From contig CACIWI010000008.1 in assembly GCA_902590355.1 (NCBI GenBank), positions 1 through 37,950 of the forward strand: DNA of 37,950 nt, in the 5' to 3' direction. A model generated the notes under the pieces. It saw only the letters and a program-made list of their open reading frames with translations. It did not search any database and was not told where the DNA came from. This DNA is from an uncultured Prochlorococcus sp. GTDB lineage: Bacteria > Cyanobacteriota > Cyanobacteriia > PCC-6307 > Cyanobiaceae. Each line of letters begins with the position of its first letter. Positions within the stretch are counted from its first letter, which is position 1. Position numbers and translations under genes: made by a program. Positions 8,115 through 12,510 of the stretch are shown one piece after another.

Positions 8115-9167
8115 TTACTTAGGAGCAGATTTGCCATCATAGCGTTTTGCCCACTCTGCTAGTATTCTCTCCCTATTTACAGCAGCCCATTGTAAGTCAT
8201 TTTTTGCGAGCTGTTTCTCTGGATTAGAAGGGAAACCTTTAGGAAGCGGAACATCAGTTTCAACAGCTGTTATTGCAAAACTTTTTGCATATTCTCTTGA
8301 GACTTCAGGAGAAATTGCCCAATCAAGAAAAGTCTTAGCAGCAGGTTTTATTTTATCTTTTTTGATAAGGGCATTAGCTTCTACATCCCATCCAGAACCT
8401 TCCTTAGGAAAAACAGCCTCAATTGGTTGCCCCATATTTACCTGTTTTACAGCTCTGTAACCAAATGAAACCCCTATTGGATACTCTCCTTTACCTGCAG
8501 CCTTACAAGGCTTAGATCCAGAATGCATATACTGAGCAATATTTTCATGAAGTGCATCAAGGTAATTCCAACCATCCTCTTCAGAAGGTAAATTTTGTAA
8601 TCTTGAAGCTACTGACAAATAACCTGTTCCAGAGGAAGCAGGGTTAGACATAACTATGTGACCTTTGTATTCTGGTTTTGTTAAATCTGCCCAAGATTTA
8701 GGTATTGATAGCCCGTTTTTTTGAGCCTCAATTTTATTAACACAAAAAGCAGAAATCCAAGAATCAATTCCAACCCATGAAGGTTTTTTTGCAGGATCTC
8801 TAAAGCTTGGTTTAACATTCGAAAGGCCTTTTGGAGCATAACCTTGAATCAAACCTCTATCATTAGCTACTAATAAACTTGAAGCAGCTAAACCCCAAAC
8901 CACATCTGCCTGTGGGTTTTCAGCCTCAGCCAATAATTTCGCAGTAACTATACCTGTTGAGTCCCTAACAATATTAACTTCTATATTAGGGTAATCTCTC
9001 TCAAAGGATTTTAGATAATTTGGTATTTGGTCATCTTCTAGAGCAGTATAAACAGTAATTGAAGCCTTTTCAGAACCTTTTTTACCCCACCACCATGCAT
9101 TTGCTGAAGGTGCAAGTGCTGTTCCTATAACAGCTGCCCCCATTACAAAAGAAAATAACTTTTTCAT
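8115..9167 (-). CDS. Periplasmic substrate-binding protein, 2-aminoethylphosphonate/iron(III) family
   Basis: A 350-residue binding protein with a clear signal peptide (residues 1-24, cut after SANA) followed by an odd WWWGKKG start to the mature chain. The fold opens with [20 protein letters not shown] and continues with [13 protein letters not shown] and ADVVWG, features shared by iron-binding FbpA/IdiA and the 2-aminoethylphosphonate binders (TIGR03261). I see no clear C-terminal Tyr pair of the kind that binds ferric iron in FbpA/IdiA, and the downstream phosphonate enzymes support an aminophosphonate ligand. It is the first gene of the import operon and probably the most expressed. Confidence 0.85.
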
Positions 9168-9601: not shown

Positions 9602-10171
9602 TTAAATTGAAGTTCCTTTTTTGAGCTTTGACGAGGAATCATTTTCTGGAAAAATCTGTTTTATATTTTCTGGAAAGAAAAACTCTAATTGCCTCCTTAA
9701 ATCACCTTCATATAAATAGTCTTTTGTTGAGACTTTAAAAGTATCTCTTACTAATCGAACATTTATTTTTTCCTTTTTACCTGCCTCATTAATTCTTGAT
9801 AAAACTAATTTAATTGGCTTATCTTTTGGTCCTTTTATGAGAGAAACAGCTTCATTTATACCCATTCCTTTAGTTGATTTGCCATCTATTTTTATGATTA
9901 CATCATTTGGTTTAATGTCAGCTGAAGCAGCAGGTGAATCATTTATTACAGATTGAATAGTTAATTCAGCAGTGTCACTATTGAGAAAAAGCCTTATTCC
10001 AATCCCTGATATTTCCTTATCTTTTTTATGAGATAGTTTTTTATTAGTTTTCACACATCCTGCATAATCTCGTGCTTCTAAACATTTTTTATGTAATTCA
10101 TCAGATATTTCAGCATTAACAGCAGTAGCTAAAGGGAGAGTAGCTAGGAGTGGAAGTAGTAAGCGTTTCAT
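9602..10171 (-). CDS. Secreted stand-alone PDZ-domain protein
   Basis: A 189-residue exported protein. Residues 1-20 (MKRLLLPLLATLPLATAVNA) are a signal peptide of a type seen on many picocyanobacterial small proteins. A short Cys-containing block follows (KKCLEARDYAGCVKTN), then one PDZ domain at about residues 52-145, including SPAASADIKPNDVIIKIDGK. The PDZ sequence resembles that of carboxy-terminal processing proteases (CtpA), but no protease domain follows. It may bind exposed C-termini in the periplasm or lumen as an adaptor. Its ATG directly abuts the stop of the TM2 gene. The partner is unknown. Confidence 0.75.
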   Translation of the reverse strand: MKRLLLPLLATLPLATAVNAEISDELHKKCLEARDYAGCVKTNKKLSHKKDKEISGIGIRLFLNSDTAELTIQSVINDSPAASADIKPNDVIIKIDGKSTKGMGINEAVSLIKGPKDKPIKLVLSRINEAGKKEKINVRLVRDTFKVSTKDYLYEGDLRRQLEFFFPENIKQIFPENDSSSKLKKGTSI

Positions 10172-10821: not shown

Positions 10822-10908
10822 TTAAAAAGCATTTAATTTATCTTTAAATTTAGATTTTGATCGACTTTCAATCCTATTTAATTTAGCTGCCAGTAGTAAG
10901 CGTTTCAT
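10822..10908 (-). pseudogene. Truncated signal-peptide gene start (28 codons)
   Basis: The - strand here opens with ATGAAACGCTTACTACTGGC, encoding MKRLLLAAKLNRIESRS and ending at a TAA after 28 codons. The first 17 bases equal the start of the PDZ gene, but the hydrophobic core is lost after MKRLLLAA. The ATG abuts the stop of the 170-residue gene, and the copy-2 direct repeat runs through it. It reads as the broken start of a secreted-protein gene, although a tiny real peptide cannot be excluded. Confidence 0.4.
10859..10873. repeat. 15-bp direct repeat, copy 2
   Basis: GATCGACTTTCAATC, one base different from copy 1 at 10437-10451 and 422 bp away. It lies inside the truncated 28-codon start sequence upstream of the DUF3303 gene. 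Both copies are followed on the + strand by a run ending TTAA(A)TT. Confidence 0.5.
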
Positions 10909-11421
10909 TTAAAAACTATATGTGACTTTATTGCATTTTTTCCTTCGATATATTTTCTGCATTTCTTTTTGTTCTGATAAAAAATCTTTTTTTGCTTGTT
11001 CATTAATTGGATCATATTTGGCTTTAAATTCTTCTTTGATAGCTTGAGCATTTTGTCTTCTTTCTTCTGCCATGAAATCAAAATCACCATCACTATAATT
11101 TCCACTTTTTAAGATAGTTTCAAACAAATAACATTCACTAGATAAATCAATATCAAATTCTTTTATTAAGAAATATTCATTACATAAGCTTTCTATTTCA
11201 TAAGGACTATCAAAAAGATCCTCCCATTTTGTTTCTATTGCATAAATTTTGGTAATTTTATCATTAGCAAATTCTTTGCTTTGTTTTGCAAATGATATTT
11301 TTTGCTGATAATCATTTTTTGATTTATTTATTGCAAATTTAAGGTCTTCGCATAATTTTGCTTTATCGTTTCCAAAACCAAATATAAGTGGGAAAACAAT
11401 AAATAAAGCTAAGCGTTTCAT
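10909..11421 (-). CDS. Predicted secreted protein, unknown function
   Basis: A 170-residue protein with a probable signal peptide (MKRLALFIVFPLIFGFG) and a strongly charged, mostly helical mature part rich in Lys, Glu and Phe. Three Cys in the mature region (LCEDL, LCNEY, ECYLF) and a fourth near the C-terminus (KKCNK) could form disulfides outside the cytoplasm. No family is recognised. Its start abuts the stop of the preceding 76-residue gene and carries the shared ATGAAACGCTTA opening. It probably belongs to the same small operon as the 67-, 54- and 76-residue genes. Confidence 0.6.
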   Translation of the reverse strand: MKRLALFIVFPLIFGFGNDKAKLCEDLKFAINKSKNDYQQKISFAKQSKEFANDKITKIYAIETKWEDLFDSPYEIESLCNEYFLIKEFDIDLSSECYLFETILKSGNYSDGDFDFMAEERRQNAQAIKEEFKAKYDPINEQAKKDFLSEQKEMQKIYRRKKCNKVTYSF

Positions 11422-11652
11422 TTAATCGTTGACTTTTTGGTCTAATAATTCTTTTAATTCCTTTGGTAAGTTTAAAAAAGAATCTCTTAAACTTTCATTC
11501 TTTTCTCCTATATGCAGTATCCACTCTCTAAATTCTTCTGCTATTGCATAACTGTCTTCATATCTTTCTAGATTATCCATAACAGAAATTCTATTAGTAG
11601 CCCAACAAGTTGCAATATCAATTCTTTTTTTTTGTTTAGTATTTACTGCCAA
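11422..11652 (-). CDS. Small protein of unknown function, start uncertain
   Basis: Up to 76 residues, soluble and acidic, with a helical core (DNLERYEDSYAIAEEFREWILHIGEK) and no recognised family. The longest form begins at a TTG at 11652 that overlaps the 54-residue gene by 10 bp, consistent with translational coupling. An ATG at codon 25 (MDNLERYED) is an equally reasonable start and would leave a 62-bp gap. The stop is followed at once by the ATG of the 170-residue gene. Confidence 0.55.
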   Translation of the reverse strand: MAVNTKQKKRIDIATCWATNRISVMDNLERYEDSYAIAEEFREWILHIGEKNESLRDSFLNLPKELKELLDQKVND

Positions 11653-11807
11653 AACTCATCTAATACATCAAACACTCTGTTGAGATAATCGTTTGCTCCT
11701 ATACATTCCCATTTTCCCTTTTCCCCAATCGCGCATTTGTAGTGAAGTTCTCTCTTGAGTTGCATTAGTTTGTTGGTCATAGCAACCTTGTCTAGTCTTC
11801 CGTTCAT
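11643..11807 (-). CDS. 54-residue conserved-looking small protein
   Basis: A compact ORF reading MNGRLDKVAMTNKLMQLKRE and ending VFDVLDEFWQ, with two Cys flanking a charged turn (YKCAIGEKGKWECIG). No family name can be given. Support is unusually good for its size: GGAGGAG ends 5 bases before the ATG, a near-ideal Shine-Dalgarno in a genome where most starts lack one, and the ATG overlaps the TGA of the upstream 67-residue gene (ATGA). The Cys pair could bind metal or form a disulfide. The gene is short enough to be missed by length-filtered annotation. Confidence 0.7.
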   Translation of the reverse strand: MNGRLDKVAMTNKLMQLKRELHYKCAIGEKGKWECIGANDYLNRVFDVLDEFWQ

Positions 11808-12007
11808 AGTAACTCCTCCGCTTTCTTCAATATTTGATTCTTTAAAAAAACAAGCGCGTCTAGTTTTTCTTCTTTTTCTTCATAATTTTCAAATTTCATT
11901 TCCGCAATTTCAACAATTGCTTTATCAACCTTTTTAAGCTGTTTCTTAATAACTCTCTTTTTAACCTGTTTTTTAATAATCCTTTTTGGAAATTTGGTTG
12001 ATTCCAT
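11804..12007 (-). CDS. Small Lys-rich helical protein, unknown function
   Basis: A 67-residue protein with a basic first half (repeated KRIIKKQVKKRVIKKQLKK) and an acidic second half (ENYEEKEEKLDALVFLKNQILKKAEELL), likely a helical or coiled-coil protein that might bind nucleic acid through its basic part. No family is recognised. Its TGA overlaps the ATG of the 54-residue gene by two bases, strong evidence for a real coupled pair. The low-complexity Lys/Glu composition is partly forced by AT-rich DNA, so homology by composition alone would be unsafe. Confidence 0.55.
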   Translation of the reverse strand: MESTKFPKRIIKKQVKKRVIKKQLKKVDKAIVEIAEMKFENYEEKEEKLDALVFLKNQILKKAEELL

Positions 12008-12345: not shown

Positions 12346-12346
12346 A

Positions 12347-12418
<72 letters not shown>

Positions 12419-12428
12419 AATTTTAAAG

Positions 12429-12510
12429 TGGGCCGGGTTGGATTTGAACCAACGTAGGCAGAGCCAGCGGATTTACAGTCCGCCCCCTTTAACCACTCGG
12501 GCACCGACCC
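12429..12510 (-). tRNA. trnY: tRNA-Tyr(GTA)
   Basis: An 82-nt class II tRNA with a long variable arm. Acceptor GGGTCGG pairs with CCGGCCC, discriminator A. The anticodon arm GCGGA-CTGTAAA-TCCGC carries anticodon GTA, followed by the variable arm and T-arm GTTGGTTCAAATCCAAC. CCA is not encoded. Tyr-Thr pairs are common in bacteria. Its promoter must lie in the 95 bp shared with the divergent aroQ gene. Confidence 0.97.

Follow-up and report, generated by a model that had tools for sequence, protein, structure and literature searches.

The gene for a 54-residue protein (ORF54) in an uncultured Prochlorococcus sp. is nested within the diversity of a cyanophage gene family, and is maintained in host genomes under purifying selection as part of a four-gene cassette. 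Its sequence relations argue strongly for a transfer from phage to host. In the account that we consider probable as a whole, a Prochlorococcus lineage would have acquired ORF54 from a T4-like cyanophage, where the gene would have stood directly downstream of regA, and about 20 bases of phage DNA would have been carried along on each side, the phage ribosome-binding site included. ORF54 would now stand second in the cassette ORF67-ORF54-ORF76-ORF170, within a genomic island that is hypervariable, and would spread between host genomes together with the cassette. Translation probably begins at the inherited Shine-Dalgarno sequence and may, with moderate confidence, be coupled to the termination of ORF67 via an ATGA overlap. 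For the product we predict a soluble hairpin of two helices, possibly dimerising into a four-helix bundle; its likeliest action would be to bind, as a small helical adaptor or inhibitor, a cellular or viral target that it has in common with the phage homologue.

The DNA analysed, hereafter the window, is the whole stretch of 37,950 nucleotides at positions 1-37,950 (forward) of contig CACIWI010000008.1 in assembly GCA_902590355.1, which belongs to the GTDB lineage Bacteria; Cyanobacteriota; Cyanobacteriia; PCC-6307; Cyanobiaceae. The gene would be a clear example of transfer from phage to host in the most common phototroph of the sea, with a direction legible in the tree and a plausible junction visible at the single-base level, ribosome-binding site included. 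Cyanophages are usually known for the opposite movement, with host genes found in phages. It also provides a defined small protein for testing the role of a widespread cyanophage gene, with relatives in P-HM2, P-SSM4 and most likely the culturable MED4.

Neither the gene nor its link to phages is new, the MED4 counterpart having been in print since 2008 (PMC2518516). Steglich et al. described PMED4_16122, in genomic island 5 of MED4, as a short ORF newly found through its microarray signal and homologous to cyanophage PSSM4_095, and suggested a transfer between P-SSM4-like phage and the island (PMC2518516); the window gene is 87% identical to this same phage homologue. The first-pass annotation had warned that such a gene may be missed, and the MED4 counterpart indeed counts among the short ORFs that the original annotation lacked (PMC2518516). 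What that paper says of PMED4_16122 does not extend to direction, junction, cassette or Shine-Dalgarno sequence, and the phage-to-host direction proposed here adds to it. Literature searches for PMED4_16122 and PSSM4_095 returned nothing beyond this report, and term searches of the main texts of PMC3037559 and PMC5082946 did not find T4-GC 278 and PHM2_220, respectively.

The ORF54 gene and its phage family

ORF54 lies where the first-pass annotation had placed it, on the minus strand, which had not been stated; it is read from 11807 down to 11643 and comprises 54 codons, ATG to TAA (Table 1). The GGAGGAG reported 5 bases before the ATG is also present (upstream letters ..GCGGAGGAGTTACT|ATG), and doubles as the codons of the final Glu-Glu in ORF67. 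The reported overlap of start and stop holds in that the ATGA is shared with the TGA of the 67-codon frame, but these letters come free with a conserved Asn at codon 2. The start counts as an overlap because the upstream frame is open, the ATGA itself being given by the conserved Met-Asn start. As for composition, the Cys pair stands (C25 and C35), but "Trp-rich end" is too strong for two Trp (W33 and W53). The Cys pair is found in 47/47 host copies, 98/98 subfamily-A phage copies and 0/81 subfamily-B copies at the sampled phage loci.

Table 1. Positions of ORF54, its cassette and the leader repeat in the window.
Feature	Position	Strand	Basis or remark
ORF54, 54-aa protein, phrog_566 / T4-GC 278 family, predicted two-helix hairpin	11643..11807	-	ORF reading, family match, model
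Shine-Dalgarno sequence GGAGGAG	11813..11819	-	5 bases ahead of the ORF54 ATG
ORF67, 67-codon frame upstream of ORF54	11804..12007	-	TGA overlaps the ORF54 ATG; without phage match
ORF76 (alternatively 52 aa from an internal ATG), third frame of the cassette	11422..11652	-	no Pfam or NCBIfam match, PHROG matches weak only
ORF170, fourth gene of the cassette	10909..11421	-	signal-peptide-like leader at the start (MKRLALFIVF..)
Leader repeat (AAATGAAACGCTTA..) opening ORF170, boundary of the ORF67-54-76 block	11405..11423	-	repeat matching
Leader repeat, exact copy directly after ORF170	10892..10910	-	repeat matching
Leader repeat AAATGAAACGCTTACTACT at gene or cassette boundaries	12161, 11423, 10910, 10173, 9595	-	repeat matching

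Relatives in cyanophages were found by tblastn: 29 of 50,697 phage records matched at E<=0.1, every one of them a cyanophage or marine virus, with protein identities of 89% for P-HM2, 87% for P-SSM4 and P-RSM3, and at most 74% for the remaining phage matches. ORF54 is a full-length homologue of the cyanomyovirus family phrog_566 / T4-GC 278 (phrog_566 profile, E 1.1e-17, residues 1-54 of 54), its annotated T4-GC 278 homologues being PHM2_220 (89% identical) and PSSM4_095 (87%). The phage copies of the family differ from the host ones in having other upstream neighbours and a far greater nucleotide diversity. In IMG/VR, 413 loci match ORF54. An alignment of 72 sequences shows that ORF54 carries the N-terminal N-G-R and the C-terminal LN..(F/L)D(V/I/A)LDE core, on which the sequences of the tree were pattern-selected and of which the tree set is hence not independent; the invariant positions include N2, G3, R4, K7, K18, H22, N43, D47, D50, E51 and W53.

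A search of the genus gave a match in 49 of 266 Prochlorococcus genomes (18 of 87 among those of good quality), and this count was cut to 47 by removing G150 and G159/L140. The frame is thus intact in 47/266 genomes, in line with the claim of a real gene conserved between strains. The G150 match was rejected as a host copy: its contig (contig 3 of a Prochlorococcus assembly, locus L312, 189,106 bases) shares length and coordinates with the IMG/VR phage contig behind L281, and is probably a phage genome from an infected single cell. The G159/L140 match was rejected as an intact copy for the stops within its frame, and was left out of the counts. At positions 5700-6400 of L140 the whole cassette is decayed, with internal stops in ORF54, while GGAGGAG and a phage-like ATACC past the end are still visible. 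Across the class, the phrog_566 search gave two matches among 291 genomes, both in the window's genus, and none in the sampled genomes of other genera.

Purifying selection, for which a dN/dS-type comparison had been suggested, is evident among the 47 host copies (pS 0.095, pN 0.004, pN/pS ~0.04), in which 14 of 18 variable sites fall at third codon positions. For subfamily-A phage copies the pN/pS is 0.058 (74 distinct sequences). Taken alone, pS is ~0.1 in hosts vs 0.78 among phage-A copies. A recent sweep of ORF54 in the hosts was considered but is not supported, and the low host diversity is not peculiar to this gene, because the neighbouring solute-binding gene has a pS that is lower still (0.017). 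The short length of ORF54 might suggest a spurious open frame, but with the 47 intact host copies, the third-position variation, the pN/pS of 0.04 and hundreds of phage homologues this has practically no probability left; conservation had already refuted it, and by these patterns ORF54 is a genuine gene.

Position of the host copies in the phage tree and the phage junction

Phylogeny by maximum likelihood, with 154 distinct nucleotide sequences from hosts and a sample of phages and an alignment of 162 bases, unites the 16 host sequences in a single clade (UFBoot 100). The phage contigs L014 (100) and then L027 (100) join this clade next, within subfamily A, all sequences of which fall in a clade of 90 (support 91), so that the host copies are seen to nest inside phage diversity in these data. 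A second subfamily (B), 44% identical, was found only in phage contigs (best 80 of 138 matches). The phage loci comprise the best 80 of 413, the best 80 of 138, 15 of another 80 and 5 isolates, some of the contigs overlapping; L095 and L307 fell outside the extraction pattern and are absent from the tree and the pN/pS counts.

The gene order in both L014 and L027 is presumably gp44-gp62-regA-ORF54, with product names after T4. On the IMG/VR contigs the names gp44, gp62, regA, gp23, hsp20 and transaldolase were assigned by us from reading the sequences. The ORF54 homologue starts two bases past the frame read as regA in both contigs. A frame of ~390 aa is also seen between gp44 and gp62 in cyanophages (L014 1415-2596 and L027 2848-4020; gene names after T4).

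The flanks of the window gene resemble those of the regA-type phage loci: 16 of its 20 upstream bases agree with 9 such loci and 17 of its 22 downstream bases with 7 of the 9, these flank lengths having been picked after inspection of the alignments. Averaged over all hosts, the regA-type loci agree at 11.3/20 upstream bases, first among 97 phage-A loci (mean of all loci 6.5), and the 7 loci at 16.0 downstream bases, first among 98 loci (mean of all loci 7.9). The upstream match averages 11.3 because most hosts carry different letters there: the resemblance, which is short and purine-rich, is clear where hosts have GGAGGAG and weaker in the majority with AGGGAA. Downstream, L027 has a flank match, and L014, the nearest phage by gene, has none. 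At the junction itself, the phage letters GAGGAG TAA CC ATG compare with GAGGAG TTA CT ATG in the window, and ORF67 therefore appears to run in the regA register, past the site of the regA stop and into the ATGA overlap. This points, with moderate confidence, to a Shine-Dalgarno sequence inherited from the phage.

The opposite direction would make ORF54 a Prochlorococcus island gene captured by phages, like psbA and hli. Some phage copies do adjoin host-like genes (psbA/psbD, talC, hli, psaJF), and the upstream neighbours vary among phage lineages, so the gene moves. We nevertheless regard such a capture as improbable, given that the host clade is shallow by the pS comparison above and nested within phage-A, that intact copies are limited to 47 of the 266 genus genomes with none in the sampled genomes of other genera, and that subfamily B occurs in phage contigs only, among the best 80 of 138 matches.

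Predicted structure and possible action of the product

Modelling from 72 sequences gave a two-helix hairpin, with helices at residues 3-26 and 32-53 and a mean pLDDT of 90.4. Rop and NblA are examples of small two-helix hairpin proteins, and the predicted ORF54 model is like them in size and two-helix topology, but it has no significant structural match, the matches being of a generic helical kind. The Foldseek search gave E 0.96 for the best PDB entry and E 0.19 for the best BFVD entry, neither significant (Z <=7.2), and the ribosome recycling factor, archaeal RNA polymerase subunit chains and ESCRT-I were rejected as fold relatives, being generic helical hairpins. ORF54 has no match in Pfam, NCBIfam or PADLOC, and a sequence profile search of the PDB returned two chance-level rows.

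The gene found upstream of the phage homologue varies over the 179 sampled loci: gp23 in 59, T4-GC 224 in 31, regA in 17 and transaldolase in 5, the names gp23, regA and transaldolase being presumed from reading of the sequences. In the named phages, the homologue lies near psbA/psbD, hli, psaJF or peptide deformylase. Because strong constraint persists while the gene moves between operons, the family is suggested to be a self-contained protein and not part of a fixed complex. Tentatively, ORF54 might be a small helical protein that binds a host target of relevance to infection. A more speculative proposal, to which we give little credence, is that a phage infection gene has been turned against phages: the host hairpin would compete with or poison the phage homologue at a shared target, as a dominant-negative immunity spread by the cassette. 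Carriage by only part of the population is what would be expected of a defence under frequency-dependent selection.

Ribosome-binding site, cassette and island

The description of the Shine-Dalgarno sequence as exceptional for this genome was borne out. A sample of 309,950 bases of the genome contains 228 ORFs with a length of at least 120 aa. None of them has GGAGG within 22 bases before its first ATG, and five have at least 5 contiguous Shine-Dalgarno bases at a spacing of 3-12; the first ATG was taken as the start, and some starts are hence wrong. The sample is the window plus 14 stretches; of a genome of 946,674 bases, it covers 272,000 outside the window. The first-pass annotation had read the strong site as a sign of high expression. 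Selection for high ORF54 output would fit a start of the rarest class in this genome and the GGAGGA-type sites that also precede several phage copies. It seems unlikely to us, however, as GGAGGAG is kept by only 12 of the 47 host copies, with CTAGGGAATTACT (AGGGAA) in 31 and other forms in 4. Inheritance from phage would explain the site at least as well, because the bases encode the Glu-Glu of ORF67 and resemble the regA end of the closest phages, which is GAGGAG too. A promoter scan was uninformative (9 sites vs 7.1 expected), and no terminator-like site was seen in the same scan.

The cassette is nearly constant over 45 host loci (ORF67 in 44/45, ORF54 in 45/45, ORF76 in 45/45 and ORF170 in 42/45), and its flanks differ between loci. 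One host genome (G015) has a single ORF54 copy with 98% identity, which may be PMED4_16122 itself; it lies in the same cassette, behind which an hli-like frame follows. The length of ORF67 ranges from 58 to 85 aa between hosts, with in-frame 9-residue units (KKQLKKGVI-like) gained or lost (window, L137, L138, L139, L143). NCBIfam rows naming ORF67 as an amidase or SV2 were rejected, as they lie far under the cut-offs and reflect a lysine-rich composition. The phage search found no match for ORF67, and tblastn gave rows for ORF76 and ORF170 only at E 0.1 or worse. Because these three genes have no credible phage relatives, a phage origin would leave the rest of the cassette unaccounted for.

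An open frame runs into the ATGA overlap from upstream in 44/44 host loci examined, 43 of which have a complete upstream start. Together with the island setting, this is what could be expected if ORF67 and ORF54 were a linked toxin-antitoxin-like or defence pair, encoded by small genes that overlap within a mobile island. That ORF67 has no phage match and that the phage homologue has other upstream neighbours (gp23, T4-GC 224, regA, transaldolase), and so no constant partner, make such a pair improbable; PADLOC moreover gave 0 families for all four cassette proteins, and Pfam 0 for ORF54 and ORF67.

The leader repeat AAATGAAACGCTTACTACT encodes signal-peptide-like starts (MKRLLLPLLA..) and has 4 matches in the window vs 0.04 expected. 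Elsewhere in this genome there are 2 in 544,000 bases, both strands counted, and none was found among 160 viral loci. Over 47 host loci, 44 matches lie near the offset of the ORF170 start and 41 near the point after ORF170. We assume that it may be the island repeat PRE1, a name not found in literature searches. A tRNA-Thr and a tRNA-Tyr at 12346-12510 (minus strand) divide core genes (class II dehydroquinase, MiaE) from the side of the island bearing the cassette, a typical island boundary. The leader repeat also forms the start of a 189-aa PDZ-domain protein (9602-10171, minus strand), which adjoins the solute-binding protein at 8115-9167.
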